Assembly (NCBI GenBank): GCA_036273715.1
Contig: DASUHB010000034.1
Coordinates: 1 to 64,000 of the forward strand
Direction: 5' to 3'
DNA length: 64,000 bases
Origin: Gemmatimonadaceae bacterium
Lineage (GTDB): Bacteria > Gemmatimonadota > Gemmatimonadetes > Gemmatimonadales > Gemmatimonadaceae
Position 1 is the stretch's first letter. Every line of letters starts with the position of its first letter. Of this stretch, positions 17,416-31,702 are shown piece by piece. The notes beneath the pieces were generated by a model. The model had not been told where the DNA came from. It made no database searches and saw only the letters and a program-made list of their open reading frames with translations. The position numbers and the translations under genes are program-made.

Positions 17416-17569
17416 CTCGACTCTGTCCCGAATCCGGAAGTGATGTTGACCCTCGGGCGCGGCGGTGCCCGCTGCGTGCAAAGTAGCGCACGGCCTTCCC
17501 CGCCCGCAAAAGCGGCCGCTACTTTTCCCGGGTGACGACCACCAAGCGAGACGCTTTCGCCGCGCCCAC

Positions 17570-18736
17570 GTGTTGACGCTTGCGCTCGTCGCCGCAGCGC
17601 CGTGGGTCGTCATTCCCATCGTCGCGATCTGGCGCGCGAGGGGTGATCCGTCGCTCGACCGTGAGCCGGTCGCCGACGCTGACGCACCGAAGGTTTCCGT
17701 CATCATTCCTGCCCGCAACGAAGCGTCGAACATCGCCGCCTGCGTCCAATCGATTTTGCTGTCGCACTATCCATCGCTCGAGGTGATCGTTGTCGACGAT
17801 CACTCGGCGGACGACACGCTGGCCATCGCCCGGGTGATGGCCACCATCCACCATCGCGTGACCGCGATCGAGGCGCCGCCGTTGCCGGACGGCTGGTTCG
17901 GGAAGCAGTGGGCGTGCGAGCGCGGAGCTGCCGTGGCCTCGGGCGACATCTTGTGCTTCACCGACGCCGATACGCGACATGGCCGCGAGCTGTTGGCGAG
18001 GACGGTACACCGCCTGAAGCGGTGCGAAATGGATTTCGTGAGCGTTCTGGGGCGTCAGGTGATGTTGACGTTCTGGGAACGGCTGATTCAGCCGCAGGTC
18101 TTCGCGATGCTGTCGATGCGTTTTGGAGGCGCGCGCGCGGTGAATGAATCGCGGCGAGCGGTCGACAAGCTTGCGAACGGGCAGTACATGCTGCTTACGC
18201 GCGCTGCGTACGACGAGGTAGGCGGTCACGCCGCGGTGCGCGATCAGGTTGCCGAAGACCTGGCGTTGGCGCAGCGTCTCTTCGAGCATGGCAAGCGTAC
18301 CGAGCTCGTCGAAGGTCGCAACCATCTGTCGACGCGGATGTACACCTCGTTCGGCACGCTCGTCCGCGGCTGGATGAAGAATATTTACGCCGGCGGCGTG
18401 CGTGCAACGCCGTTTGGATCGACCGGGCGTGCACTCTTACCGCTCGCACTTCTGGCTGGTCCGGCCGCCAGTTTGGCGCCGGTGGTCGTGCTGATCCTCT
18501 CGGCGTTTGGCCTGGTGTCCAGCGACTGGTTTGTGTGGTCGCTCATCGCGACCATCGCAACGCTGCTCTGGTGGGGCCAGGTGTACGTGCGCGCACCGAT
18601 CGTCGGTGTGTCGCGAGCGCTGCGCTTCGCGGCGCTTTACCCGCTGGGGTCATTGATCTTGGGGTATATCGTCATCCGCGCGGTGGTGCGTGGACGGCGC
18701 GTCGAATGGCGCGGCAGAGAGTACGTCTCGGGCTGA
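17570..18736 (+). CDS. membrane-associated family 2 glycosyltransferase
   Basis: A 388-residue GT2 enzyme. An N-terminal membrane helix (LTLALVAAAPWVVIPIVAIW) is followed by the GT-A domain: VSVIIPARNEASNI, VIVVDDHSADDT, GKQWACERGAAVASG and the metal-binding CFTDADTRHG. Two or three C-terminal hydrophobic segments (LLPLALLAGPAASLAPVVVL, SLIATIATLLWWGQVYV, ALYPLGSLILGYIVIRAVV) anchor it. The layout resembles HpnI/CrtQ-type lipid or carotenoid glycosyltransferases, but the acceptor is unknown. The start is a GTG; an upstream in-frame region is not coding-like. It is convergent with the S9 peptidase gene. Confidence 0.85.
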   Translation: MLTLALVAAAPWVVIPIVAIWRARGDPSLDREPVADADAPKVSVIIPARNEASNIAACVQSILLSHYPSLEVIVVDDHSADDTLAIARVMATIHHRVTAIEAPPLPDGWFGKQWACERGAAVASGDILCFTDADTRHGRELLARTVHRLKRCEMDFVSVLGRQVMLTFWERLIQPQVFAMLSMRFGGARAVNESRRAVDKLANGQYMLLTRAAYDEVGGHAAVRDQVAEDLALAQRLFEHGKRTELVEGRNHLSTRMYTSFGTLVRGWMKNIYAGGVRATPFGSTGRALLPLALLAGPAASLAPVVVLILSAFGLVSSDWFVWSLIATIATLLWWGQVYVRAPIVGVSRALRFAALYPLGSLILGYIVIRAVVRGRRVEWRGREYVSG

Positions 18737-18864: not shown

Positions 18865-20940
18865 TTAGCGCTGACCCACCGCGTTCTGCGCGCCGGCGCC
18901 TTGCCATTTCTTGAACCACGCCAGCACGTAGGCAATCTTCACCATCATGTGGCTCGGTGTCGCCGCGATTTCGTGCGATGCGTTAGGCACACGCACCAGC
19001 GCCGCCGGCACCTTGCGAAGCTTGAGCGCCTCGTAGAATTGCTCGGCTTCGGAGCTCGGCGTCCGGTAGTCGACATCGCCGGTGATCATCATCGTCGGCG
19101 TCGTCACGTTGCCCACGTAGGTGATCGGCGAATATTTCATGTAGGTGTCGGCCTGCGACCACGGCACGCCAGTGAACCAGTACGTTAGGCCGAACTCGGA
19201 CAGGTCGGTCGTCAACACCCAGCTGTACCAGTTGATCACCGGCTTCTGTACGACCGCCGCGCGGAACCGGTGCGTATGGCCCACGATCCACGCCGAGAGC
19301 ACCCCGCCGCCGCTGCCGCCCGTGACGTAGAGATTGTCGGGGTCGATGTACCCTTTCGCGATCATCGCGTCCACGCCCGACATCAGATCGTCGTAGTCGT
19401 GGTCCGGGTAGTCGTGGTTGATGAGATTGCCGAACGTCTCGCCGTAGCTGGTGCTGCCCCGCGGGTTCATGTACAGGACGACATAGCCCGCGGCCGCGTA
19501 TTGCTGCAGCTCCGCCGACCAGCGGTCGCCGTAGTCGAGATACGGACCGCCGTGGATCTCGAGCAGCAGCGGATACTTGTGGGAGGCCTCGAAGCCCGGC
19601 GGCGTGATCACCCATCCCTCCACGTCGCGCTGGTCGAACGACGACTTGACGTGAATCTCCTGCACCGCGCCTAACGTCTTCCCGCCCGGCCCGAACAATC
19701 CATCGTTGAGCCTCGTGAGACGAGCCACGGAGCCGGCGCGCACGCCCGTGACCGCCACGTCGGCCGGATGGTCCGGATCGGTCTCCGTAAATGCGATCCG
19801 CCCCGCGCGCGACGTCGAATACGACCCGCCCGGATACGGCCGGCCGATGTCCAACCCGCCGACGTGCGAGACGATCGGGGTCACCTTCCCGTCCAACATC
19901 ACCAATCCGACCTTCGTGTCGCCCTGATCATCGTAGAGCGCGTAAATGCCGCGCCCATCCGCCGCCCACGACGGCGCGAACAGGTCGCGATCGAAGTTAG
20001 GCGTCACCTCGCGCGGCGACGACCCGTCCGCGTTCATCACGTACAGGTGCGTCACCTGGTAGCCTTGATGGTGGTCGTCGAATCCCGTGTACGCGACCAT
20101 CCGCCCGTCCGGAGAAATCGCCGGCGAATTGTCGGGGCCATCGCGCGTCGTCAGCGCGCGCACCGCTCCACCCGCCACCGGCACCGAGTACACCTCCGTA
20201 TTCAACGGCGTGTAGTCGCCGTCCGGATGCCGGTTGGCAGAAAAGTAAATCGTCTTGCCGTCGGGCGACCACACCGGCGCGCCGTCGTCGAACGGCCCGC
20301 TCGTGATCTGACGCGGCGCACCCCCGTCCGCGCTCACCACGAAGATGTGCACGTGCCCCGATGGCACATCCCCGCCGCCATCACGCCGGTAGACTAACGC
20401 GTCGGTGTACCGCGTCGGCGGCCCCCAGTCGGCGCCATCCGGCTTCGCCGGCAGCGTGACCAACGGCTTCACCGGCTCCGGCACGAACATCGCGAACGCG
20501 ATGAACTCCCCGTTAGGCGACCACGCCGGCGCCGATGGCCCGTGCTCCACGTGCGTCACCGTGCCGTCGACCCCCGAGGCTAACCATCGCACGTGAATTT
20601 CGCTCGAGCCGTCCGCGTTCGACACGTATGCGATGCGCCCGCCGTCCGGCGACCATCGCGCCGACGCTTCGTTCCGCTCCCCGCCGCTCGTCAGCGGACG
20701 CTGCTCGCCGCCATCGGCGCTCACGAGCCACAGCGTCGATCGCTCGCGATCCTTCATGATGTCGTAGCGCGATCGCGCGTACACCACCTGCCGCCCATCC
20801 GGCGAAATCTGCGGATCCGCCGCCCACTGCAGCTCGAAGATGTCGCGCAGCGCGAACCGGTTGTTGCCTAACGAATCCTGCGCCCGCGGCGCCGTCGCCG
20901 CGACACACACCGCACACAGTGCACTCATCAACGTTCGCAT
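18865..20940 (-). CDS. secreted S9 family peptidase (prolyl oligopeptidase type)
   Basis: A 691-residue protein with a signal peptide (MRTLMSALCAVCVAATAPRAQ). Residues 30-400 form a beta-propeller with repeated WSPDG, SPDGRQVVY and WAADGRG blocks. The C-terminal alpha/beta hydrolase has its nucleophile in GGSGGGVLS (Ser about 543), Asp in GDVDYRTP (about 625) and His in NASHEI (about 656). This is the acylaminoacyl-peptidase/dipeptidyl-peptidase architecture, acting on short peptides in the periplasm. The ATG at 20940 is chosen because it places the signal at the N-terminus. Confidence 0.93.
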   Translation of the reverse strand: MRTLMSALCAVCVAATAPRAQDSLGNNRFALRDIFELQWAADPQISPDGRQVVYARSRYDIMKDRERSTLWLVSADGGEQRPLTSGGERNEASARWSPDGGRIAYVSNADGSSEIHVRWLASGVDGTVTHVEHGPSAPAWSPNGEFIAFAMFVPEPVKPLVTLPAKPDGADWGPPTRYTDALVYRRDGGGDVPSGHVHIFVVSADGGAPRQITSGPFDDGAPVWSPDGKTIYFSANRHPDGDYTPLNTEVYSVPVAGGAVRALTTRDGPDNSPAISPDGRMVAYTGFDDHHQGYQVTHLYVMNADGSSPREVTPNFDRDLFAPSWAADGRGIYALYDDQGDTKVGLVMLDGKVTPIVSHVGGLDIGRPYPGGSYSTSRAGRIAFTETDPDHPADVAVTGVRAGSVARLTRLNDGLFGPGGKTLGAVQEIHVKSSFDQRDVEGWVITPPGFEASHKYPLLLEIHGGPYLDYGDRWSAELQQYAAAGYVVLYMNPRGSTSYGETFGNLINHDYPDHDYDDLMSGVDAMIAKGYIDPDNLYVTGGSGGGVLSAWIVGHTHRFRAAVVQKPVINWYSWVLTTDLSEFGLTYWFTGVPWSQADTYMKYSPITYVGNVTTPTMMITGDVDYRTPSSEAEQFYEALKLRKVPAALVRVPNASHEIAATPSHMMVKIAYVLAWFKKWQGAGAQNAVGQR

Positions 20941-21032
20941 CACATCTCCCGATCCAGAGACGCCCAACGCACCACCATCGCCGCCCTTAAGTTGGGCACC
21001 GGACTCAGACGCGCAAGCTCCTGTTTTTGAGG

Positions 21033-21320
21033 TCCTTCGGGATTTCCGGGAAGCGCGGCGGTGCTGGATTCCCCAACACAGGGTCAAGGATCACACCACC
21101 GGCGTTCTCTTCTCCTGAGCGAGTGCCTGGGATGCCGATCCCTCACGTCTTGTATCTCCGTTCATAAAGACGCGAACACAGCGGACACGATCACGAGCAA
21201 CACCAAGCCTTTGATTTTTTTTGTCACTGCTTTGTCCGCTGTGTCCTGCTTTGTCCGCGTCTTCATGAGCGTAGCACTCTGCCCGTCCGGCCTGCGTCAC
21301 GATCCATCTTCTCTCGTTCG
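21033..21320. repeat. intergenic repeat, copy B, with an imperfect inverted repeat
   Basis: The 486-bp gap 20941-21426 holds a second copy of the element at 11877-12051. Within it 21161-21188 and 21234-21268 are an imperfect inverted repeat. The left arm contains CATAAAGACGCG and ACACAGCGGAC; the right arm's complement contains CATGAAGACGCG and the same ACACAGCGGAC, with an 11-nt bulge. Copy B also carries about 110 bp (21071-21179) absent from copy A. It sits directly before the methyltransferase/helicase genes. No gene is seen in the gap. Confidence 0.75.
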
Positions 21321-21426
21321 TGACCCTGCCAAACGACACGCAAGACCGCTTCAAACCGCAATCCTTTGCACCGCCCCGCAAAGTTTCGCACCCGCTCCGC
21401 CACACCGCCACCGCTACGTTCGCGGC

Positions 21427-24400
21427 GTGCGCTCCCTCGAATCTTTCGCCGCCCTCCTCGCCGCCGCCAGCTCCACCGCCGGCCTCTCCGCCATCGCCAC
21501 CGAGATCGGATTCCCCCCACACACCATCCGCCTCGACCCTGACCTCCAATCCACCCTCGGCTTGCCCAACGCCGTACGCTCGGCCCGCCTCGCGTCCGGC
21601 CGCGGCGCACTCCGCACCATCCTCGTCGAATGCGAACACGATACACCACTCCGCACCGTCGCCACTACCATCGCCCAACACTGCTCCGCCCACGCACCGC
21701 AATTGCTGTGGCTCCTCATCGCCACACAATACAACGGATGCGATCTAACGATCGCTACGTGGTCCGCCGACCGATCCAAACCACGCGTCGTCGCCCTCCA
21801 CGTCGATCGCACTCACATCGTCCCCAGCGACGCTGAAACACTCGCCGCACTCGCCGCTACAGCCGCCGAACCCGATATCCTCGCCCACTCCGCCTGGCTC
21901 GATACACTCGGCCGCGATGCGCTCAGCAGAAAGTTCTATCGAAACCTCCAACTCGTCGTCGCCAACCTCGCCGCGTCAGCTACCCTCGGCGCCACACGGG
22001 TCACAACAACCGAACGGTCCGACCTCGCACTTCTCTACATCTCCCGACTGCTCTTCCTCAGCTTCATCCAAACAAAAGGATGGCTCGACCACGATCGACG
22101 CTTCCTCCACAATACGTTCGCCCGCTGCATGGAACGCGGCGGCAATTACCACTCACGCACCCTCCTTCCACTGTTCTTCGGCACCCTCAATACACCACCC
22201 CGCGCACGCGCGTCCACCGCTCGAGCCTTCGGACGCATTCCATTCCTCAACGGCGGCCTCTTTGCCCGCACCGCCCTCGAACGTCGCTACCCCCAACTCC
22301 GATTCCCCGACCATACCCTCGGCGCCGTCTTCGGAGAATTGCTGTCAAAGTACCGCTTCTCTCCCCGCGAAGAATCCGCCAATTGGTCGGAAGCGGCCGT
22401 CGACCCGGAAATGCTAGGCAAAGCGTTCGAATCGCTCATGGAGGCCAACAGCCGCCGCGCCTCCGGCGCGTTCTACACACCACGCCGCCTCGTCGCTACG
22501 GTTAGTCGAGCCGTCCTCGCACACGCGCTCGCTGTGGATGCTGTCGCGCCCGATACCGCGCGCGCCGCACTCGATGGGCTCATGCCTAACGCAGAAGACC
22601 GCCGCCGCCTCGCCGACCGCTGCGCCCGCATCACCGTCCTCGATCCCGCCTGCGGCAGCGGCGCATTCCTCGTCCACATCCTCGAGGAGCTCGCCGCCCT
22701 CCGCGCCCGCCTCGGCGACCACCGCCCGCCATGGCAAATCCGCCGCGATATGCTCACAAAATCCATCTTCGGCGTCGACATCAATCCCACCGCCGTCTGG
22801 CTCTGCGAGCTCCGCCTCTGGCTCTCCGTGGTCATCGATTGCGACACACACGATCCAATGCTCGTCCCGCCACTCCCAAACCTCGATCGCCATATCCGCG
22901 TCGGAGACTCGCTCGCCGGCGATACGTTCGAACCACCCGCCACCACCACATGGCGCGGCGGCCCACGACTCGCCCAACTCCGCGAACGCTACGCCCGCTC
23001 CAGCGGACGCCGTAAGCACACGCTGCAGCGCACGCTCGATCGCGCCGAACGCACGCTCGTCATTGCCCACCTCGAGCGACAACTCGCCGCCTCCTCCGCG
23101 CGTCGACGAGACATCCTCAGCGCCCTGCGCGGACGCGACCTCTTCGGCACTCGCACTACCCCCGCATCCGTGGCGCGCCAACGCCTCGCCGCAGAACGCG
23201 ACCGAACCCGCGCACTGTCAGCCGCCCTTCGCGACGTGCGCAACGGAGGCGCGCTGCCCTTCGCCTGGGTCACCCACTTCCCCGACGTCGCTCGCCTCGG
23301 CGGCTTCACCACCATACTCGGCAACCCCCCGTGGGTACGGCTACACCGCATCCCAACCTCCGCACGCCTCGAGCTGCGCCGACGCTTTGCCTCCTACCGC
23401 AACGCGGCCTGGCCCCGCGGCGCCTCCGCCGCCCGCGCAACACTCGGCTTCGCCGCACAGGTCGACCTCGCCGCGCTCTTCACCGAACGCGCGCTCGCTT
23501 TGCTGCAACCCGCTGGCACCCTCGCCCTCCTTCTTCCATCAAAACTGTGGCGCGCCCTCGCTGGCGGCGGCCTCCGCGCCCAGATCCATCAACAGGCACA
23601 CATCGTATCCCTCGAAGATTGGAGCGATGCGCCAAACCAATTCGAAGCCGCCGTCTATCCCTCCCTCCTCGTCGCCGAACGACTCCGGCAACCTGCCACA
23701 CGCGAAAAACTCCACGAGATCCGCGACATCAGCACAACCGTCCACCGGCCTAACCGTACCACGCACTGGTGCATGCCGCATCACCGGCTGGCGCTTGACC
23801 TGGATCCTGCCAGCCCATGGCTGCTCGCACCCCCGGCCGTCCGCGACGCCTTCGATCTCCTCGCCAAAGAAGGAATCCCCCTCGTCGAGAGCGCGCTCGG
23901 CCCACCGCAACTCGGAGTCAAGTGTGGGTTGAACGAAGCCTTCATCGTACGAACCACCGACTCGGACACAATGATCGCGACCGTCGACGACGGCACACGA
24001 ACCGGTCGCATCGAACGGACCCTCCTGCGCCCGCTCCTGCGCGGCGAACACCTGGCCGCATGGCGACGCGAGCCAAGCAGAAACGGCGAGTCCATCGTAT
24101 GGACACACGACGCGCGCGGCGCACCGCTCCGAACGCTGCCGCCCCTCGCCCACACGTGGCTCGCCCGCTGGCGCGGGTCGCTCTCCCGCCGCGCCGATGC
24201 GCGCACACACGCACCCTGGTGGACGCTGTTCCGTACCGCCGCCGCCGCGAGCGAGCTCGCGCGCGTCGTGTGGGCCGATGTCGGGCGCACGCCGCGCGCA
24301 CTCGTGCTCATGCCTAACGATCCGACCATCGCGCTCAATAGTTGCTACCTGCTGCCGTGCCGCGACCCGCGCGACGCCCACGCGCTCGCCGCATTGATGA

Positions 24401-24660
24401 ATTCGCCGCTCGTTGCCGCATGGCTGGCCCTCATCGCCGAACCGGCCCGCGGCGGCTACCGACGCTTCCTCGCGTGGACCATCGCGCTTCTCCCCACGCC
24501 CCGCTCCTGGAACCGCGCCCGCGACATCCTCGCACCCATCGCCCAGCGCGCGCATCGCGGCCAACCCCCCGACAGCGACGAATTGCTCGACGCCACGCTC
24601 CGCGCCTACAACGTCCGACGATCCGACATCGACCCGCTCCTCCAATGGACCAGTTCCTGA
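21427..24660 (+). CDS. Eco57I/PglX-like DNA adenine N6-methyltransferase
   Basis: A large gamma-class-like DNA methyltransferase of 1077 residues from GTG at 21427. Motif I is LDPACGSGAFLVH (about 405-415), which binds AdoMet, and motif IV is LGNPPWVRLH (about 632), the adenine-flipping site. ASGAFYTPRRLV before motif I is typical of Eco57I/BREX PglX-type enzymes, and GVKCGLNEAFIV marks the target-recognition half. About 380 residues precede the catalytic core. I see no PD-(D/E)xK nuclease motif there, unlike bifunctional type IIG enzymes. The last 16 bp overlap the helicase gene. It probably marks self DNA for a defence module. Confidence 0.88.
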   Translation: MRSLESFAALLAAASSTAGLSAIATEIGFPPHTIRLDPDLQSTLGLPNAVRSARLASGRGALRTILVECEHDTPLRTVATTIAQHCSAHAPQLLWLLIATQYNGCDLTIATWSADRSKPRVVALHVDRTHIVPSDAETLAALAATAAEPDILAHSAWLDTLGRDALSRKFYRNLQLVVANLAASATLGATRVTTTERSDLALLYISRLLFLSFIQTKGWLDHDRRFLHNTFARCMERGGNYHSRTLLPLFFGTLNTPPRARASTARAFGRIPFLNGGLFARTALERRYPQLRFPDHTLGAVFGELLSKYRFSPREESANWSEAAVDPEMLGKAFESLMEANSRRASGAFYTPRRLVATVSRAVLAHALAVDAVAPDTARAALDGLMPNAEDRRRLADRCARITVLDPACGSGAFLVHILEELAALRARLGDHRPPWQIRRDMLTKSIFGVDINPTAVWLCELRLWLSVVIDCDTHDPMLVPPLPNLDRHIRVGDSLAGDTFEPPATTTWRGGPRLAQLRERYARSSGRRKHTLQRTLDRAERTLVIAHLERQLAASSARRRDILSALRGRDLFGTRTTPASVARQRLAAERDRTRALSAALRDVRNGGALPFAWVTHFPDVARLGGFTTILGNPPWVRLHRIPTSARLELRRRFASYRNAAWPRGASAARATLGFAAQVDLAALFTERALALLQPAGTLALLLPSKLWRALAGGGLRAQIHQQAHIVSLEDWSDAPNQFEAAVYPSLLVAERLRQPATREKLHEIRDISTTVHRPNRTTHWCMPHHRLALDLDPASPWLLAPPAVRDAFDLLAKEGIPLVESALGPPQLGVKCGLNEAFIVRTTDSDTMIATVDDGTRTGRIERTLLRPLLRGEHLAAWRREPSRNGESIVWTHDARGAPLRTLPPLAHTWLARWRGSLSRRADARTHAPWWTLFRTAAAASELARVVWADVGRTPRALVLMPNDPTIALNSCYLLPCRDPRDAHALAALMNSPLVAAWLALIAEPARGGYRRFLAWTIALLPTPRSWNRARDILAPIAQRAHRGQPPDSDELLDATLRAYNVRRSDIDPLLQWTSS

Positions 24661-26879
24661 TCGGCAACCGCGCCGACGTGCGCGCCCTCATCGCAGACCT
24701 CTGGCTCCACGAGCCCGAAACGACGACAGCCACAACCATCGGACACATTGCGCTGCGCCCACACCAGCAATCCGCACTCGGCCGCGCTCGACGCGCAATC
24801 GCCGAACACGGCGGCGCACTCCTCGCCGATGAAGTCGGACTCGGCAAAACATTCGTCGCGGTCGCGCTCATCCGCGAAGCACGCCGCGCACTCGTCGTCG
24901 CACCCGCCGCGCTCCGCGATATGTGGCGCGATGCGCTCGCCCGCGGTTCCGGAGCGGCACGCATCATCTCTTACGACGCGCTGAGCCGAGGGTCGCTGCC
25001 TAACGGGGATTTCGACCTGGTGGTGCTCGATGAAGCACACCACGCGCGCAATCCAGCCACCAAACGCTACGCACGACTCGCCGCACTCACGGCACGCACG
25101 CCCGCCCTGCTCCTCTCGGCGACGCCAATCCACAACCACGCGAACGATCTCGCCGCCCTCCTTGCCCTCTTCCTCGGCGCCCGTGCATGGCAACTGAACG
25201 ATGACCAGCGTGCCGCCTGCATCATTCGACGGGAACGCGCCGACATCGCCGCTGCCGCGCTGCCTGAGCTCACACCGCCGGTCTGGATACCGGTCGGAGA
25301 TGATCACGAGCTCCTCGACCTGATCACGTCGCTCCCGCCACCCCTCCCGCCGCGCGATGGCGAAGACGGCGGCGCACTCGTCCATTGGGGACTCGCCAGA
25401 CAATGGGCCTCGAGCCACGGTGCATTATTGCGCGCGCTCGATCGGCGGCTCGCGATCGCCACTGCGCTCGACGCCACGCTCGCCACCGGCCGCTATCCGT
25501 CCCGCGCAACGCTCGGAGCCTGGACGTGCGGAGACGACGCCGTCCAGTTGGCATTCCCGCAACTCTTCGAGGACGAGCGCCGCCTAACGGAAACCATGCG
25601 CGCCGTCGTCGCCGCGCACGCCGCCGCGGTCGCAGCGCTGCGCTCCCGCGCGCTCGCCAGCGTCTGGACCGACACCGAGCGCGCGCAACGACTGCACGAG
25701 CTCCGCGCGGCACACCCGGGCGAGAAGCTCGTCGCATTCTCCCAATTCACACACACCGTCCGCACCCTGTTTACCCGCCTGCCCGATCGCACCGGAGCGG
25801 CTGCACTCACCGCGCGCGGCGGCCACCTCACGAGCGGGCCAGTCACCCGGCGCGAGCTCCTTACCCGATTCGCCCCACGCGCCATGGCCTCCCACGCGCC
25901 GCGCGACATCGAGCGCATCGACTTCCTCCTCACCACCGACCTGCTCAGCGAAGGAGTCAACCTGCAAGACGCGTCCGTGGTCATCCACCTCGACCTCCCC
26001 TGGACGCCCGCCCGCCTCGAACAACGCGTGGGCCGCGCACGCCGCATCGGCTCGACACACAAAACCGTCGCCGTCTACGCCCTCTCGCCACCCGCGGCCG
26101 CCGAAGCGCTGCTTCGCGTCGAGCAACGGCTCCACGCCAAGCTCCGCGCCGCCAACCGCGCCATCGGCATCGCCGGCACCATCCTCCCCGTCGCCACGCC
26201 TAACGCAATGGAATGGGATCCGGCCGCGCCGTCGGCCGCCCGCCGCCAGGAAGCGCTGCGACAACGGCTCGCCGCATGGCGCTCGACCCAGGCGCCACAC
26301 CTCGAACACGCCGTCCCGCTCCTCGCCGTCGAGCACACCGGCCGCCGCTGCATGCTCGCCGCGTTCCAACACGGCGATGCCCGCTGCTCCCTCGCCGGCA
26401 GCCTCGACGACCGCCCGTTCACCGACGACCCCGCGCTCCTCCTCACGATCGTCTCCCTGTTCGACGAAACGCCGCCGCAGTCCGCCGCACCGTCGCCGCC
26501 TAACGGGATCGTCGGTCATCTGCTCGAGCGCTGCAGCGAATGGCTCAGCCGACGCGCCGCAGTCGCAGCAACCGGCGGAGTGCTGCCCCTGCACGTGCCC
26601 AGCCGACGGCACGCCATGCGGCGCATCGTGGCCATCACCGCCCGCGCTCCACACCATCTCCGCCCAACGCTCGCGCCGCTCGCCGCACGCGCCCGCCGCG
26701 CCATTACGCTGCCCTTCGGCATCGGTGCGGAACGCGTGCTCGACGATCTTGCAACTGCCACGCTCCCCGACGAGGCATGGCTCCGCGCGCTCGGAACCTT
26801 TGCCGACGTCCAGGAACGAGCCCACCACAACGACCCCGACTCGCCCGTGCTCGTCGCCGCGCTCGTCGGCCTCGGATGA
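24645..26879 (+). CDS. SNF2-family helicase/translocase of a methyltransferase-linked defence module
   Basis: A superfamily 2 ATPase of 744 residues. The SNF2 motifs are in order: a Q-motif-like IALRPHQQSALGR, motif I LADEVGLGKT (62-69), DEAH in VVLDEAHHARN (129-132), motif III LLLSATPIHN, and the C-terminal lobe with LLSEGVNLQDASVVIHLDL and QRVGRARRIGS (460-470). A C-terminal region of about 270 residues is unassigned. No HKD phospholipase-D or other nuclease motif is visible. The ATG at 24645 lies inside the 3' end of the methyltransferase gene (16-bp overlap), so the two are translated as an operon. The pairing resembles drmD/drmMI of class 1 DISARM without drmABC. Confidence 0.88.
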   Translation: MDQFLIGNRADVRALIADLWLHEPETTTATTIGHIALRPHQQSALGRARRAIAEHGGALLADEVGLGKTFVAVALIREARRALVVAPAALRDMWRDALARGSGAARIISYDALSRGSLPNGDFDLVVLDEAHHARNPATKRYARLAALTARTPALLLSATPIHNHANDLAALLALFLGARAWQLNDDQRAACIIRRERADIAAAALPELTPPVWIPVGDDHELLDLITSLPPPLPPRDGEDGGALVHWGLARQWASSHGALLRALDRRLAIATALDATLATGRYPSRATLGAWTCGDDAVQLAFPQLFEDERRLTETMRAVVAAHAAAVAALRSRALASVWTDTERAQRLHELRAAHPGEKLVAFSQFTHTVRTLFTRLPDRTGAAALTARGGHLTSGPVTRRELLTRFAPRAMASHAPRDIERIDFLLTTDLLSEGVNLQDASVVIHLDLPWTPARLEQRVGRARRIGSTHKTVAVYALSPPAAAEALLRVEQRLHAKLRAANRAIGIAGTILPVATPNAMEWDPAAPSAARRQEALRQRLAAWRSTQAPHLEHAVPLLAVEHTGRRCMLAAFQHGDARCSLAGSLDDRPFTDDPALLLTIVSLFDETPPQSAAPSPPNGIVGHLLERCSEWLSRRAAVAATGGVLPLHVPSRRHAMRRIVAITARAPHHLRPTLAPLAARARRAITLPFGIGAERVLDDLATATLPDEAWLRALGTFADVQERAHHNDPDSPVLVAALVGLG

Positions 26880-26945
26880 CAGCCCGCGACCCGGCCCCCG
26901 CCGCATTCCTTCGCGGCTCTCGCCAGATCGCTCTAAATTGCGGGA

Positions 26946-27632
26946 ATGCCGTCACGGAAACCGCTCGCAATTCTGTTCGATCTCGATGGAACGCTCGCCG
27001 ATTCGCTCGAGCTCATCTTGGGCGCCTTCCGCCACACCTTCGCCACCCACCTGGGCGCTGTCCCCTCCGACACCGCGTGGATCGCGGGCATGGGAACCCC
27101 GCTCATCGCTCAGCTCCGCTCCCTCGTCGCCGACGAAGCGCTCGTCGAACCGATGACCGCCACCTACCGGTCATGGCAAAACGAGCATCACGACGAGCTC
27201 CTTCGCGAATTCGAAGGCGTGCGCGAAACGGTGTCCTTGCTGCACGACCGCGGCCACCGGATGGCGCTCGTCACGAGCAAAGCCACCGATGCAGCCAAAC
27301 GGGCGCTGCACTTGATGGGCATCGACCCCCTTCTCGACCACGTCGTCGGATCTGACTCGACCACGACCCACAAACCCGACGCCGGTCCCGTCTTGCACGC
27401 GCTGGCGCTACTCCATCGCGATCCCACAGGAGCGATTTTTGTCGGCGATTCACCCCACGATATCGCAGCCGGGACCGCAGCCGGCGTCTTCACCGTGGCC
27501 GCCCTCTGGGGTCCTTTCAGCCGCCAAACCCTCGAAGCCGCACGACCCAGCCGCCTCATCGCGGACATCCGCGACCTTCCGCCCCTCGTTGAGGCCCTGA
27601 CCGCCACCGCCCTGGCCCCTTCGCACACGTGA
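26946..27632 (+). CDS. HAD-superfamily phosphatase, phosphoglycolate phosphatase-like
   Basis: A 228-residue HAD hydrolase. Motif I is FDLDGTLADS (nucleophile Asp and general acid Asp), motif II is the LVTSKAT Thr/Ser strand, motif III the Lys in THKPDAGP, and motif IV FVGDSPHDIAAG. The cap lies between motifs I and II, as in Gph/PpaX enzymes that dephosphorylate 2-phosphoglycolate or pyrophosphate. The substrate is not decided by sequence. It starts 66 bp after the helicase gene, and cannot be assigned to that module on evidence here. Confidence 0.88.
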   Translation: MPSRKPLAILFDLDGTLADSLELILGAFRHTFATHLGAVPSDTAWIAGMGTPLIAQLRSLVADEALVEPMTATYRSWQNEHHDELLREFEGVRETVSLLHDRGHRMALVTSKATDAAKRALHLMGIDPLLDHVVGSDSTTTHKPDAGPVLHALALLHRDPTGAIFVGDSPHDIAAGTAAGVFTVAALWGPFSRQTLEAARPSRLIADIRDLPPLVEALTATALAPSHT

Positions 27633-27695
27633 TCGTTCAAACCTTTGGCCCCGCCAAACCATCTGATTCAGCGACGGCACGAGGATGCGCACTGA

Positions 27696-28268
27696 ATGCT
27701 GACAGCCACGATGGCAGTGGTAACAACAATTCCGAGTGACGAGCCGCCAACCGACGTAGCACGAGCTGCGGCGGGTGACCGGCAAGCCTTCGAACGCGTG
27801 TACCGCGCCAACATGCAGCGGGTGTTTTCCATCTGCGTACGCATGTGCGGCGATCGCGTGAGAGCGGAAGAGTTGACGCAGGATGTGTTCGTCCGGGCCT
27901 GGGAAAAGCTGCCCCTGTTCCGCGGCGAAAGCGCATTCAGCACATGGCTCCATCGCCTCGCCGTCAACGTGCTGCTGAACGATCGGAAGACGCAGAGCCG
28001 CGAACGATCACGTGCCGCTGCAACCGATGACGATGAAGAAAACGAAGAATCGTACGGCGCGACGGCACCGCCATCGCACGCCGATCGGATGGATCTCGAG
28101 ACAGCAATCGCCTTGCTGCCTCCCGGAGCACGACGCGTGTTCACGTTGCACGACATAGAAGGCTATCGACACGAGGAAATTGCCGAAATGCTCGGCGTGA
28201 CCGCAGGCGGCAGTAAGGCGCAGCTCCACCGCGCCCGACTTCTCTTGCGCGAGGCACTGAACCGATGA
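27696..28268 (+). CDS. ECF-type RNA polymerase sigma factor
   Basis: A 190-residue sigma factor with region 2 (VYRANMQRVFSICVRMCGD, AEELTQDVFVRAWEKL, FRGESAFSTWLHRLAVNVLLND) and region 4 (LLPPGARRVFTLHDIEGYRHEEIAEMLGVTAGGSKAQLHRAR). The linker is acidic (DDDEENEES). It directs RNA polymerase to stress promoters. Its stop overlaps the next start as ATGA, so it is translationally coupled to an anti-sigma factor. The downstream DUF4097 genes may be its targets. An internal ATG at 27711 is an alternative start. Confidence 0.95.
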   Translation: MLTATMAVVTTIPSDEPPTDVARAAAGDRQAFERVYRANMQRVFSICVRMCGDRVRAEELTQDVFVRAWEKLPLFRGESAFSTWLHRLAVNVLLNDRKTQSRERSRAAATDDDEENEESYGATAPPSHADRMDLETAIALLPPGARRVFTLHDIEGYRHEEIAEMLGVTAGGSKAQLHRARLLLREALNR

Positions 28269-29032
28269 CCGACCAACTCTTCACCTGCGATCAATTCGAC
28301 GCGATGCTTTCCGAGTACCTGGAAGGCACCCTCGATCCTGCTGCGCGCGCCGCGCTGGAATCGCACGCCTCTCGCTGCGGCCGGTGTCGCGCGTTGCTCG
28401 CCGACCTCACCACGATCACGACGGCGGCGACGGCGCTCCCCGATCTCGAGCCGTCGCGCGACCTGTGGCCGGGGATTGCGGACCGCATCGATGCACCGGT
28501 GGTCGCGCTGCACGACGCCGGCCGCCCCAACGCCGGCCGGCCCTTCGTTAGGCCGTGGTACCTGGCGCCGGCGCCGCTCGCCGCGGCGGCGGCCGTGCTC
28601 ATCGCAGCCACGGCCGGCATCACACTCCTTGCCACCCGCACGGCGTTGCCGAACGGCAGCACCGTTGCCAGCACGGCCGGCAGCAGTACGCCGCTCGCGC
28701 GGGACGACTCGCTTCCCCTGATCCCGGCGCCTCCGCCGCGCGCGCGAAACGCGTCCGGCACCGCGCCTAACGCAGTGCCGGTTCAGGAAATCTACGCCCG
28801 CGAGATCGCCCAGCTCGACTCGATCGTCCGCGACCGGCGCTCGCAGCTCGACACCGCAACCATCGCGGTCATTGAAAAGAACCTCCAGATCATCGACCAG
28901 GCCATCGCCCAGAGTCGCGCGGCCCTGGATCGCGATCCGAACAGCCGCTTCCTGCACAACCAGTTGAACGACGCATACAACCAGAAGATCGCCCTGCTCC
29001 GCACTGTCGCTCTACTCCCTGCTCGCACGTGA
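28265..29032 (+). CDS. zinc-finger anti-sigma factor, single-pass membrane protein
   Basis: A 255-residue anti-sigma factor. The N-terminal zinc domain has the HxxxCxxC pattern in HASRCGRCRALL. A transmembrane helix (LAAAAAVLIAATAGITLL) follows, and the C-terminal extracytoplasmic part has a coiled-coil-like run (YAREIAQLDSIVRDRRSQLDT) that may sense envelope state. It should hold the upstream ECF sigma inactive until a signal. It overlaps the sigma gene by 4 bp (ATGA) and is followed by the DUF4097 genes. Confidence 0.9.
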   Translation: MTDQLFTCDQFDAMLSEYLEGTLDPAARAALESHASRCGRCRALLADLTTITTAATALPDLEPSRDLWPGIADRIDAPVVALHDAGRPNAGRPFVRPWYLAPAPLAAAAAVLIAATAGITLLATRTALPNGSTVASTAGSSTPLARDDSLPLIPAPPPRARNASGTAPNAVPVQEIYAREIAQLDSIVRDRRSQLDTATIAVIEKNLQIIDQAIAQSRAALDRDPNSRFLHNQLNDAYNQKIALLRTVALLPART

Positions 29033-29040
29033 GGCTCGCA

Positions 29041-29961
29041 ATGTGTGCCCGATTCTATACTGCCATGTGCCTGGCCGCGGTGATGGCGGCCACGCCCGCG
29101 CTGCTGCCGGCGCAACGACAACACCGGGATGACGACGACGACGCCTCGTCCCGCATCGACACGACGGTCGCACTCTCCGCCGGCGGCGTCGTCGAGCTCT
29201 CGCTCATCTCGGGAGAGATCAAAGTCACCAGTTGGAACCGCGACCAGGTCCGCGTCCACGCCACGAGCGAAGAGGGCCTGCTGCAATTCGATGCGTCCAA
29301 CGGTCGAGTGAGCCTCTCTGTCCGCTCGCAACACGGCAACATGGGCGACACGGAGTACCAAGTCACCATCCCGGCCGGCGCGCGCCTCATCACCCACAGC
29401 GTCTCCGCGGACATCACCACCGATGGCGGCAGCGATGTCGAAGCACGCTCCGTTAGCGGCGACGTCGCCGTCTCCAACGCAACGGGCCGAGCGACGATCG
29501 AGTCGGTGTCTGGAGGATTGAAAGCCAGAAACGTCGGCCGAGGACTCCGCGCCAGCACCGTGAGCGGCGATGTCGAAGCCAACGACATCACCGGTGACAT
29601 CGACGCCCAGAGCACCAGCGGCGACATCGTGCTCAGCGGCACGAAGTCATCCTTCGTTCACACGCAAACCGTGAGCGGTGAAACGCGATTCGGTGGTACG
29701 GTCGATCGCGCGGGTCGCTATGAGTTTCACTCGCACTCCGGCGACATCCAGCTCGCGGTCCCATCGACCGGCGTCACCTTCGACGTCAACACGTTCAGCG
29801 GCGACCTGCAGAGCGATTACCCCATGACGCTCCAACCCGGCTCCGAAGTCGGCCACAAGCACATGGAATTCTCGATCAACGGCGGCGGCGCCCGAGTCAC
29901 CGCCGAAACGTTCAGCGGCGACATCACGGTCGAACGACCCGGCCACTCCCACGAGGACTAA
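29041..29961 (+). CDS. secreted DUF4097 beta-helix protein, first of three paralogues
   Basis: A 306-residue secreted protein. The signal MCARFYTAMCLAAVMAATPALL ends before a poly-Asp stretch. The body is a DUF4097 repeat domain: many turns of the form VSGDV, TSGDIVLSG and FSGDI at about 20-residue spacing, typical of a right-handed beta-helix. The ATG at 29041 is preceded by GTGAGG as a ribosome site; a GTG at 29029 overlaps the anti-sigma stop. Its turns use SGD, while the two following paralogues use VNG. Function is unknown; an envelope role is inferred from the sigma/anti-sigma context. Confidence 0.88.
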   Translation: MCARFYTAMCLAAVMAATPALLPAQRQHRDDDDDASSRIDTTVALSAGGVVELSLISGEIKVTSWNRDQVRVHATSEEGLLQFDASNGRVSLSVRSQHGNMGDTEYQVTIPAGARLITHSVSADITTDGGSDVEARSVSGDVAVSNATGRATIESVSGGLKARNVGRGLRASTVSGDVEANDITGDIDAQSTSGDIVLSGTKSSFVHTQTVSGETRFGGTVDRAGRYEFHSHSGDIQLAVPSTGVTFDVNTFSGDLQSDYPMTLQPGSEVGHKHMEFSINGGGARVTAETFSGDITVERPGHSHED

Positions 29962-29966
29962 CGACG

Positions 29967-30773
29967 ATGCGAACCCTTGCTCACGGCACGCTTGCTCTCG
30001 CAGCCCTCGTTGCGCTCGCGGCGCCGGCGCTGGCGCAGAACACACAAACGCAGAACGGCGACACCTTCGACTGGTCGGGCGCTATTCCCGCGGGCAGCTG
30101 GCTCACCGTCCGCAATCTGAATGGTCCTGTGCGCGTCGAAGCCGCCTCGGGTGACGAGGCCTCGGTGCACGCTACCAAAGAATACCGCGGCGACGCCGAG
30201 CCGCAGCGCGTCCACTTTCAGGTCATGAAGGACGGCAGCAACGTCACCATCTGCGCACTCTGGAACGACGACGACACGTGTGACGACAACGGCTATCACT
30301 CCCACCACGATGGGAGCCACAACGATCACGTTTCGGTTCACTTCACCGTCAAGCTCCCCAAGGGCGTGAAGATGAACGCAGGCACGGTCAACGGTGACGT
30401 CAGCATCTCGGGCGCAACGGCGCCGGTCAAGGCACACACCGTAAATGGAACGGTTGAAGCAGCCACCGCGACCGGCCCCGTCGATGCGAGCACGGTCAAC
30501 GGCGACGTCTCCGTGAGCATGGACGCGCTGAGCGGCGACGGCGATCTCAACTACAGCACGGTCAACGGATCGATCACCGCCGAGCTGCCGGCCGGCCTCA
30601 ACGCGGACATCGATATGCAGACCGTCAACGGTTCGCTCACGTCGGACTTCCCCCTCACCCTGAGCGGATCCATCAACCCCCGACACCATCTGCACGCAAC
30701 GATTGGATCCGGCGGCCGCCATATTGAATTCCACACGGTCAACGGCAGCATCGAGCTCAGGAAACACGGCTGA
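29967..30773 (+). CDS. secreted DUF4097 beta-helix protein, second paralogue
   Basis: A 268-residue protein with a Sec signal (MRTLAHGTLALAALVALAAPALAQ). DUF4097-type turns recur as GTVNGDVSISG, AHTVNGTVEA, STVNGDVSV, STVNGSITAEL and QTVNGSLTSD, close to every 20-25 residues. The N-terminal strand block DWSGAIPAGSWLTVRNLNGPV is shared with the third paralogue, showing duplication. A His/Asp-rich loop (YHSHHDGSHNDH) could bind metal. It begins 5 bp after the first paralogue ends. Confidence 0.88.
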   Translation: MRTLAHGTLALAALVALAAPALAQNTQTQNGDTFDWSGAIPAGSWLTVRNLNGPVRVEAASGDEASVHATKEYRGDAEPQRVHFQVMKDGSNVTICALWNDDDTCDDNGYHSHHDGSHNDHVSVHFTVKLPKGVKMNAGTVNGDVSISGATAPVKAHTVNGTVEAATATGPVDASTVNGDVSVSMDALSGDGDLNYSTVNGSITAELPAGLNADIDMQTVNGSLTSDFPLTLSGSINPRHHLHATIGSGGRHIEFHTVNGSIELRKHG

Positions 30774-30895
30774 CCGCGCGCCCGTAGTGTGGATTGCGGG
30801 TGCTCACGCCCCGCCCCGGCCGCTTGCGCGAACCCGGGCGGGGCGCAGTGTTAGGCGCCCGCGAGGTCACACTCACGATCGCCCACGAGGTCGCC

Positions 30896-31702
30896 ATGCG
30901 TCGGTTCCTGATCGCCGTCGGTATCGCTGCGTTCGTCGCCAGCGGATGTGTCGCGCGACGCGCACACTACCAAGCCAACGCCTTCGAGTGGACGGGCTCT
31001 GTTCCAGCCGGCCAGTGGCTGCATGTCCACAACTTGAATGGCACCATCAACGTCGTCGCCGGCACGGACGCCAACGTCGAAGTGCACGCCTCCAAGAAGT
31101 GGACGCACGGTGGCGATGAAGTGCATTTCGTGAAGAACGTCGGACCGGACGGCGTCACCATCTGCGTGCTCTACCATAGCGGCGACGACTGCAGCGCCGA
31201 TCAGTCTTCGAGAAGCAGCAGACATCATGGCCTCTTCTCTTTCCACAGTAGCTCCGATGCGCAGACGGATTTCGTCATCGACGTGCCCCCGGGCGTCAAC
31301 CTCGAGCTGGCCAACATCAGCGGGTCAGTTCAAGCGTCGGGCACCTCCGGAACCGTCGACGCCAGAGTCGTCAACGGCGAAATCAACGTCGCCTCTCACG
31401 AGGGCGCGCTGGACCTGGTCACCGTCAACGGCAGTGTGACCGCAGCTCTCGACACGTTGCCGGCAACCGGCGACATCTCGCTCAAGACGGTCAACGGGTC
31501 GGTCACGGCGGTACTGCCGTCGGCGCTCAATGGGTTCGTGAGCTTCGAGACTGTCACCGGGCACATCAGCGACGCCTTCACCGCCACCAGCAACGACCCG
31601 CCGAGTGCCAAGAAGTTCGACGGCACCATCGGAACCGGCGGCTCACGCCACGTGACGTTGTCGACGGTCAACGGCAGCGTGTCGCTGCTCAAGCACGCCT
31701 GA
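30896..31702 (+). CDS. DUF4097 beta-helix lipoprotein, third paralogue
   Basis: A 268-residue paralogue of the preceding gene, but with a lipoprotein signal (MRRFLIAVGIAAFVASGC), so it is anchored where the second is soluble. EWTGSVPAGQWLHVHNLNGTI and repeated TVNGSVTA turns match it closely. A cysteine pair (VTICVLYHSGDDC) corresponds to one in the second protein. A Ser/His-rich loop (SSRSSRHHGLFSFHSS) is inserted. The 122-bp gap before it contains one GTTAGGC. It ends at a convergent hairpin. Confidence 0.87.
   Translation: MRRFLIAVGIAAFVASGCVARRAHYQANAFEWTGSVPAGQWLHVHNLNGTINVVAGTDANVEVHASKKWTHGGDEVHFVKNVGPDGVTICVLYHSGDDCSADQSSRSSRHHGLFSFHSSSDAQTDFVIDVPPGVNLELANISGSVQASGTSGTVDARVVNGEINVASHEGALDLVTVNGSVTAALDTLPATGDISLKTVNGSVTAVLPSALNGFVSFETVTGHISDAFTATSNDPPSAKKFDGTIGTGGSRHVTLSTVNGSVSLLKHA

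Follow-up and report, generated by a model that had tools for sequence, protein, structure and literature searches.

The 64,000-nt window studied here (positions 1-64,000 of contig DASUHB010000034.1) comes from the Gemmatimonadaceae bacterium GCA_036273715.1, a 4.34 Mb genome that is 98.7% complete (G000, genus g1 in our coding), and it carries a gene pair encoding a DNA methyltransferase and an SNF2-type helicase. The methyltransferase gene (21427..24660, on the plus strand, as are all features described below) has a GTG start and encodes an Eco57I/MmeI-type (gamma-class) DNA adenine methyltransferase of 1077 amino acids, a single chain with both catalytic and target-recognition parts. The helicase gene (24645..26879) has an ATG start and encodes an SNF2/RapA-type helicase, or translocase, of 744 amino acids. 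Both open reading frames (ORFs) are intact, and they overlap by 16 bp (24645..24660), from which we infer translational coupling of the two proteins. The original prediction, made for this window, had described the two genes with their motifs and overlap, placed between an S9 peptidase on the left and a HAD phosphatase on the right, and we recovered each of these in place.

The methyltransferase matches the Pfam families Eco57I (1.2e-16) and MmeI_Mtase (8.8e-10), as well as the MmeI spacer domain, and its AlphaFold model is confident, with a mean predicted local distance difference test (pLDDT) of 91 and a predicted template modelling score (pTM) of 0.89. Its first 130 residues (21427..21816) form an alpha-alpha-beta-beta-alpha-beta-beta-beta domain at the position of the nuclease in type IIG enzymes. 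From the secondary structure of the model, we read this strand and helix arrangement as resembling the restriction-endonuclease fold. This is the least conserved part of the protein, and no catalytic D, E or K of a D...ExK motif is conserved in it among 59 family members. Residues 160-330 (21904..22416) correspond to the helical spacer of MmeI, with an invariant LNGGLF, and are followed by motif I for S-adenosylmethionine binding (DPACGSGAFL, residues 406-415, 22642..22671) and the catalytic motif IV (NPPW, residues 633-636, 23323..23334), these three motifs being invariant or nearly so. The target-recognition domain (residues 751-1030, 23677..24516) is conserved throughout the family, with a median pairwise identity of 0.50 versus 0.54-0.60 for the catalytic blocks. 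In profile searches CamA and M.BseCI rank on top at about 1e-54 (CamA 1.2e-54), and CamA is also the first Foldseek match, with a template modelling (TM) score of 0.76 over the length of CamA, compared with 0.50 over the query for MmeI.

The helicase matches the Pfam families SNF2-rel_dom (3.2e-14) and Helicase_C (1.3e-15) and contains the motifs GLGKT, DEAH and QRVGRARRIGS. Its AlphaFold model (pLDDT 83, pTM 0.76) is matched by SNF2 remodellers and RapA in Foldseek, the alignment with RapA extending over about 1000 columns and most of both chains. RapA is also the first match in the profile search (5.5e-36) and the nearest bacterial helicase, although the window protein lacks the Tudor-like N-terminal domains of RapA and is paired with a methyltransferase. 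The original prediction had suggested a hidden effector in the C-terminal part of the helicase or the N-terminal part of the methyltransferase. This was not borne out by the structural models, in neither of which is an intact nuclease present: the C-terminal 195 residues of the helicase (residues 550-744, 26292..26876) are modelled as a three-stranded meander, long helices and a last strand, a RapA-like region in which no nuclease was recognised, and the methyltransferase N-terminus has the fold described above with no conserved nuclease residues. The GC skew over the pair is strongly negative (to -0.30 at window positions 20001-28000) relative to the rest of the window, which perhaps reflects codon use in both genes.

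The distribution of the pair was determined in 298 genomes of the phylum, of which 103 belong to the family of the window (f1) and 69 to the rest of the order. Within f1, a strong methyltransferase match is found in 91 of the 103 genomes, both genes in 88 and the methyltransferase only in 3, while 12 have neither gene by strong match and none has the helicase alone (Fisher p of co-occurrence, 3e-13). Several of the genomes without the pair are small (1.8-2.4 Mb). Of the 69 genomes from elsewhere in the order, 64 have the methyltransferase. In a tree of 59 methyltransferase sequences, each of the 15 GTDB genera and families tested is recovered, and the 14 changes needed are the possible minimum. 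In close pairs, the ratio of nonsynonymous to synonymous substitution rates lies at 0.11-0.15 in the methyltransferase and at 0.12-0.21 in the helicase, showing, at the level of sequence comparison, purifying selection on both catalytic cores.

The pair also occupies a conserved chromosomal place. In the family of the window, the order of the block is a family-2 glycosyltransferase (17465..18736 in the window), the pair, the HAD phosphatase (26946..27632), an ECF sigma factor (27696..28268), a putative anti-sigma factor (28265..29032) and three DUF4097-like proteins (29029..31702). The names of the last two elements are our own reading, and the gene clusters c7 and c3 cover this remainder of the block. 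The HAD gene adjoins the pair across the family, in some genera on its upstream side, and is kept also in genomes without the pair. Helicases in the loci of relatives were located by six-frame matches, and in 38 of 40 loci the helicase lies directly or nearly directly downstream on the same strand, with a small ORF between the genes in one case. In the two exceptions the genes are 12 kb apart (G025) or the helicase is absent (G080). No defence genes were recognised around the pair in the window annotation or in the gene clusters of the 40 loci, and no third gene adjoins the pair consistently across genera in these loci, other than the HAD, sigma factor and DUF4097 genes.

Sites without the pair look clean. 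G189 has an intact block in which only 104 bp separate the HAD match from the DUF4097 match, where the pair would lie, and G263 and G173 have likewise kept the flanking block without it. A further candidate, G235, was discarded, as its apparent empty site is a contig edge bearing the start of the methyltransferase. The pair is thus a core, syntenic and vertically inherited element, and its reading as a stray, mobile defence module is not supported. In G080 (7.5 Mb in 4 contigs; L055:6334-10755) the methyltransferase is kept, and the helicase and HAD gene have been cleanly lost, which makes this genome a natural test of the methyltransferase without its motor.

A search of one genome per species and of viral contigs identified similar pairs of methyltransferase and SNF2 helicase in many other phyla, and also on viral contigs. 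The helicases of these cousin modules, in which the helicase-first order is common, are longer (about 1050-1170 amino acids) and carry an N-terminal phospholipase-D-type HKD nuclease domain (HxK ... GSxN) wherever the N-terminus is complete. The HKD motif occurs in no helicase on the Gemmatimonadota side of the tree, which also includes L100 and L102 (Myxococcales), L104 (Acidobacteriota), L108 (Deltaproteobacteria by its title) and the viral-collection contig L160. In the methyltransferase tree, which makes no use of the helicase, the HKD state changes only once, both sides are fully supported, and the sister clade of the window methyltransferase is paired with HKD-SNF2 helicases. Two families, f4 and f9, retain a helicase N-terminal extension of about 190 amino acids. 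For that of f4, hhalign shows homology with the HKD domain (probability 97.9%, E 4e-13), but it is catalytically dead, with PDF in place of HxK and GAHF in place of GSSN. The f9 extension gave no detectable HKD homology when searched alone, while the homology is seen for f4 and f9 together; in the family of the window there is no trace of the domain. The f4 remnant and the broad occurrence of HKD-bearing helicases indicate loss and not gain, and a single loss of the HKD nuclease on the Gemmatimonadota side is thus strongly suggested by the sequence comparisons.

Among the cousin modules, one in Bacteroides pyogenes (L154:3988-12074) has an inverted second recognition domain adjoining a site-specific recombinase, so that its specificity apparently switches by phase variation. 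In Aphanothece hegewaldii (L112:7614-16097) a methyltransferase, an OLD/TOPRIM-like ATPase and an HKD-SNF2 helicase form a three-gene unit, and in the cyanobacteria L125 and L131 and the Anaerolineae L120 a gap of 1.3-1.9 kb, possibly a gene, separates the methyltransferase and helicase.

The two sides of the tree also differ in their target-recognition domains. Among pairs with 60-70% core identity, the nuclease-less enzymes have a median identity of 0.51 in this domain (minimum 0.40), compared with 0.41 for the HKD side (minimum 0.24); at 70-85% core identity the values are 0.63 and 0.40, the latter from 10 HKD pairs only. The Gemmatimonadota side therefore appears to have kept its specificity, and that of the HKD side appears to change. 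Several matches within the family stop near residue 752, and swapping of recognition domains was considered for these; it was rejected, as in the genera concerned (g8 and g22) the domain is encoded by a separate downstream ORF and is 43-48% identical. In these genera (L047, L075, L076 and L077) one ORF of about 800 amino acids encodes the catalytic part of the methyltransferase and another of about 360 amino acids its recognition domain, an arrangement resembling HsdM and HsdS.

We compared the pair with the named systems that combine similar components. Profile searches with DISARM, BREX and type IIG families gave no assignment. In PADLOC the methyltransferase is closest to type IIG enzymes (140.6 bits), with DrmMI among further matches, and the helicase is closest to DrmD, DpdE and BrxH, DrmD being the best family in both PADLOC and NCBIfam. 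All NCBIfam scores are far below cut-off, both for the helicase (DrmD 129 against 610 bits, DpdE 128 against 500) and for the methyltransferase, which falls under every PglX cut-off (PglX 43 against 400). That the pair belongs to no named system, as had been supposed, is supported by these scores. The reported lack of a DUF1998, HKD, PglZ or nuclease partner holds in the window as well, and over the whole genome there is no DUF1998/MZB domain and only one PglZ domain, in a REC-PglZ protein, a PorX-like response regulator on another contig.

Class 1 DISARM shares an SNF2 helicase and a PglX-like methyltransferase (DrmD and DrmMI), but its YprA-family helicase carries the DUF1998 domain that the genome lacks, and drmABC was not found beside the window pair, whose neighbours are housekeeping genes. 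The gene order in DISARM is drmD-drmMI, which would be the reverse of the methyltransferase-helicase order seen here. Of the PglZ phosphatase and BrxC ATPase that characterise BREX loci, PglZ was not found at the pair. ARMADA consists of YprA and a BrxHII-like/PglX-like pair (PMC12458937), and thus also shares the combination of SNF2 helicase and PglX-like methyltransferase. For its YprA, no MZB/DUF1998 domain is present in the genome, the helicase domain itself not having been searched separately. Type-2 BREX-related (BR) systems, which are related to Hma (PMC12839542, PMC8565338), comprise an HKD-SNF2 helicase, an N6-methyltransferase, a DUF499 ATPase and DUF3780 (PMC12839542). The logic of helicase and N6-methyltransferase is shared, but the window helicase has no HKD domain, and no DUF499- or DUF3780-like partner appears in the window annotation or the gene clusters of the 40 loci, where these were not searched as families. 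Since each fails at least one defining feature or is unconfirmed, we file the pair under none of type-2 BR, ARMADA, Hma and class 1 DISARM.

The layout of the methyltransferase is that of MmeI/BpuSI-type IIG (IIL) enzymes, with an N-terminal domain, helical spacer, gamma-class methyltransferase and C-terminal recognition domain, but the nuclease residues are not conserved and a separate SNF2 gene is added. The nearest solved structure, CamA of Clostridioides difficile, has the same methyltransferase fold and is likewise a core orphan enzyme of its lineage, an epigenetic regulator acting species-wide (PMC8187626). It has 577 amino acids, lacks the N-terminal domain and spacer, and has no SNF2 partner in its published description (PMC8187626). 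Near-universal presence in a lineage, vertical inheritance and no cognate nuclease found, the marks of core orphan methyltransferases, are also true of the window enzyme. The HKD-SNF2 and Eco57I modules of L154, Methanoculleus (L151) and Aphanothece (L112) have a homologous methyltransferase and SNF2 helicase side by side, but they are scattered over phyla and bear the HKD domain that the window pair lacks. In part, the pair functions as a methyltransferase of type IIG descent would with an SNF2 partner. The papers searched contain no account of it in Gemmatimonadota, which counts only weakly as evidence of absence.

The window is also rich in the motif GCCTAAC/GTTAGGC, and the repeat reported in the original prediction is real: 88 copies occur in the 64 kb, versus 2.2 expected from shuffles (about 38-fold over-representation), and pattern counts give 5785 in the whole genome. 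The copies are strand-balanced and lie within and between genes, with an extended consensus of roughly YGCCTAACG. The consensus is sharp: apart from GCCCAAC and GACTAAC, its single-base variants occur at about the chance level or less often. An origin as integron attC sites was rejected, the copies being dispersed, mostly coding and generally not forming paired attC arms. In the family the motif is bimodal, with about 270-5800 copies in enriched genera (g1, g10, g13, g15, g16, g18, g20, g27, g28, g125 and g126) and about 7-115 in the others. G228, assigned to g1 like the window, is without the pair and has 9 copies of the motif, where other g1 genomes have thousands; fragmented into 750 contigs, it is possibly misplaced or a mixed bin. 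GCCTAAC looks like a lineage-specific, highly iterated, non-palindromic motif, comparable to cyanobacterial iterated motifs or an uptake sequence. Because it does not track the presence of the pair or its recognition domain, we treat it as a separate finding. In the G080 stretch (L055) a second set of 7-mers, CTACGGC, CCGTAGC and GCGCTAC, is over-represented.

Two intact, tightly linked enzymes, core to the lineage, with no detectable nuclease and with conserved target recognition, have to be explained. We consider it probable, though by no means certain, that the pair is a domesticated, vertically inherited, nuclease-less derivative of a restriction-type module, combining a housekeeping DNA mark with a translocase. 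Several points weigh against this. Loss of the pair in several small genomes would suit a defence system as well, and the evolutionary rate of the helicase is higher than that of the methyltransferase, which is common among defence effectors. In addition, the top rank of CamA by fold is partly due to its heavy representation among the solved structures of such enzymes, and a nuclease encoded elsewhere in the genome may act in trans. The main rival, which we judge possible but the less likely explanation, is a fixed innate defence in which the methyltransferase marks self and the translocase strips unmarked phage or plasmid DNA or stalls its replication without cutting, the pair having become core through constant phage pressure. 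The relatives of the helicase (DrmD, DpdE, BrxH, HmaA and ZorD) and of the methyltransferase (type IIG, DrmMI and PglX) are indeed mostly defence proteins, cousin modules lie on viral contigs, one module has an invertible recognition domain, and nuclease-free helicases are known from BREX-related type-3 systems, although PglZ is present there (PMC12839542). However, a conserved recognition domain with vertical, syntenic inheritance is unusual for defence, the neighbourhood contains no recognised defence genes, and the genome has no PglZ-type effector besides the PorX-like regulator. A defence role is conceivable, but the distribution does not favour it.

That the pair is a complete restriction system whose nuclease is hidden or acts in trans is very unlikely: the methyltransferase has a domain at the place of the type IIG PD-(D/E)XK nuclease, but the catalytic residues are not conserved in the 59 sequences, no nuclease was recognised in the helicase model, and the loci offer no conserved third gene beyond the HAD, sigma factor and DUF4097 genes. 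We give even less credit to a reduced DISARM, that is drmD and drmMI after loss of drmABC, as had been suggested. The best helicase family and the DrmMI match would agree with it, but the DrmD score falls far short of its cut-off, the genome has no DUF1998 protein, and the nearest relatives elsewhere are modules of an HKD-SNF2 helicase and an Eco57I methyltransferase, to which the sister clade belongs. Equally improbable is that the methyltransferase marks GTTAGGC/GCCTAAC and thereby maintains the motif genome-wide, as has been suggested of orphan methyltransferases and the HIP1 motif of cyanobacteria (PMC4390886). The abundance of the motif in the window and genome would fit, but most genomes of the family carry this conserved methyltransferase without being enriched, the enriched lineages are scattered on its tree (5 changes), and enrichment-associated columns make up 5.0% of the recognition domain versus 4.2% and 2.7% elsewhere, with no clear excess. 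The marking of GTTAGGC by this enzyme, which the original prediction had put up for testing, thus finds no support in co-variation with the pair or its recognition domain.

Under the domestication reading, a possible mechanism starts from the cousin modules, in which the Eco57I-type methyltransferase would be expected to protect self DNA, and the SNF2 translocase, with its N-terminal HKD nuclease, to attack unmarked DNA. The nuclease would have been lost on the branch from which the genes of Gemmatimonadota, and of a few Myxococcota and Acidobacteriota, descend. The methyltransferase would now write adenine methylation at a single lineage-conserved, probably non-palindromic site, and the helicase, produced in step through the 16-bp overlap, may dock on it as a physical complex and would move along double-stranded DNA at the expense of ATP. 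It could help the methyltransferase to reach sites covered by protein or, alternatively, remove bound proteins from sites that are unmethylated or hemimethylated. Overall, the pair would serve as a housekeeping system for the whole chromosome, in epigenetic control or in marking DNA after replication, by a logic similar to that of CamA, CcrM or Dam, plus a dedicated motor. More specifically, and only tentatively, we suggest a restriction-derived writer and remodeller, in which a core adenine methyltransferase and its own SNF2 motor set a chromosome-wide epigenetic state across the order, the motor exposing or reading sites like the DDM1-type remodellers in eukaryotic DNA methylation.

Such modules are usually described as mobile and patchy, whereas here a single nuclease loss was apparently followed by a core syntenic pair throughout the order. 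A sister family still shows a remnant of the lost domain, and this offers a testable case of restriction machinery turned to housekeeping. Counting such pairs as defence from profile matches alone can misjudge the defence content of whole phyla. For the Gemmatimonadales, an order of soil and water bacteria, the prediction is that most members share a single adenine-methylation site, which would be written by one enzyme with an SNF2 partner.

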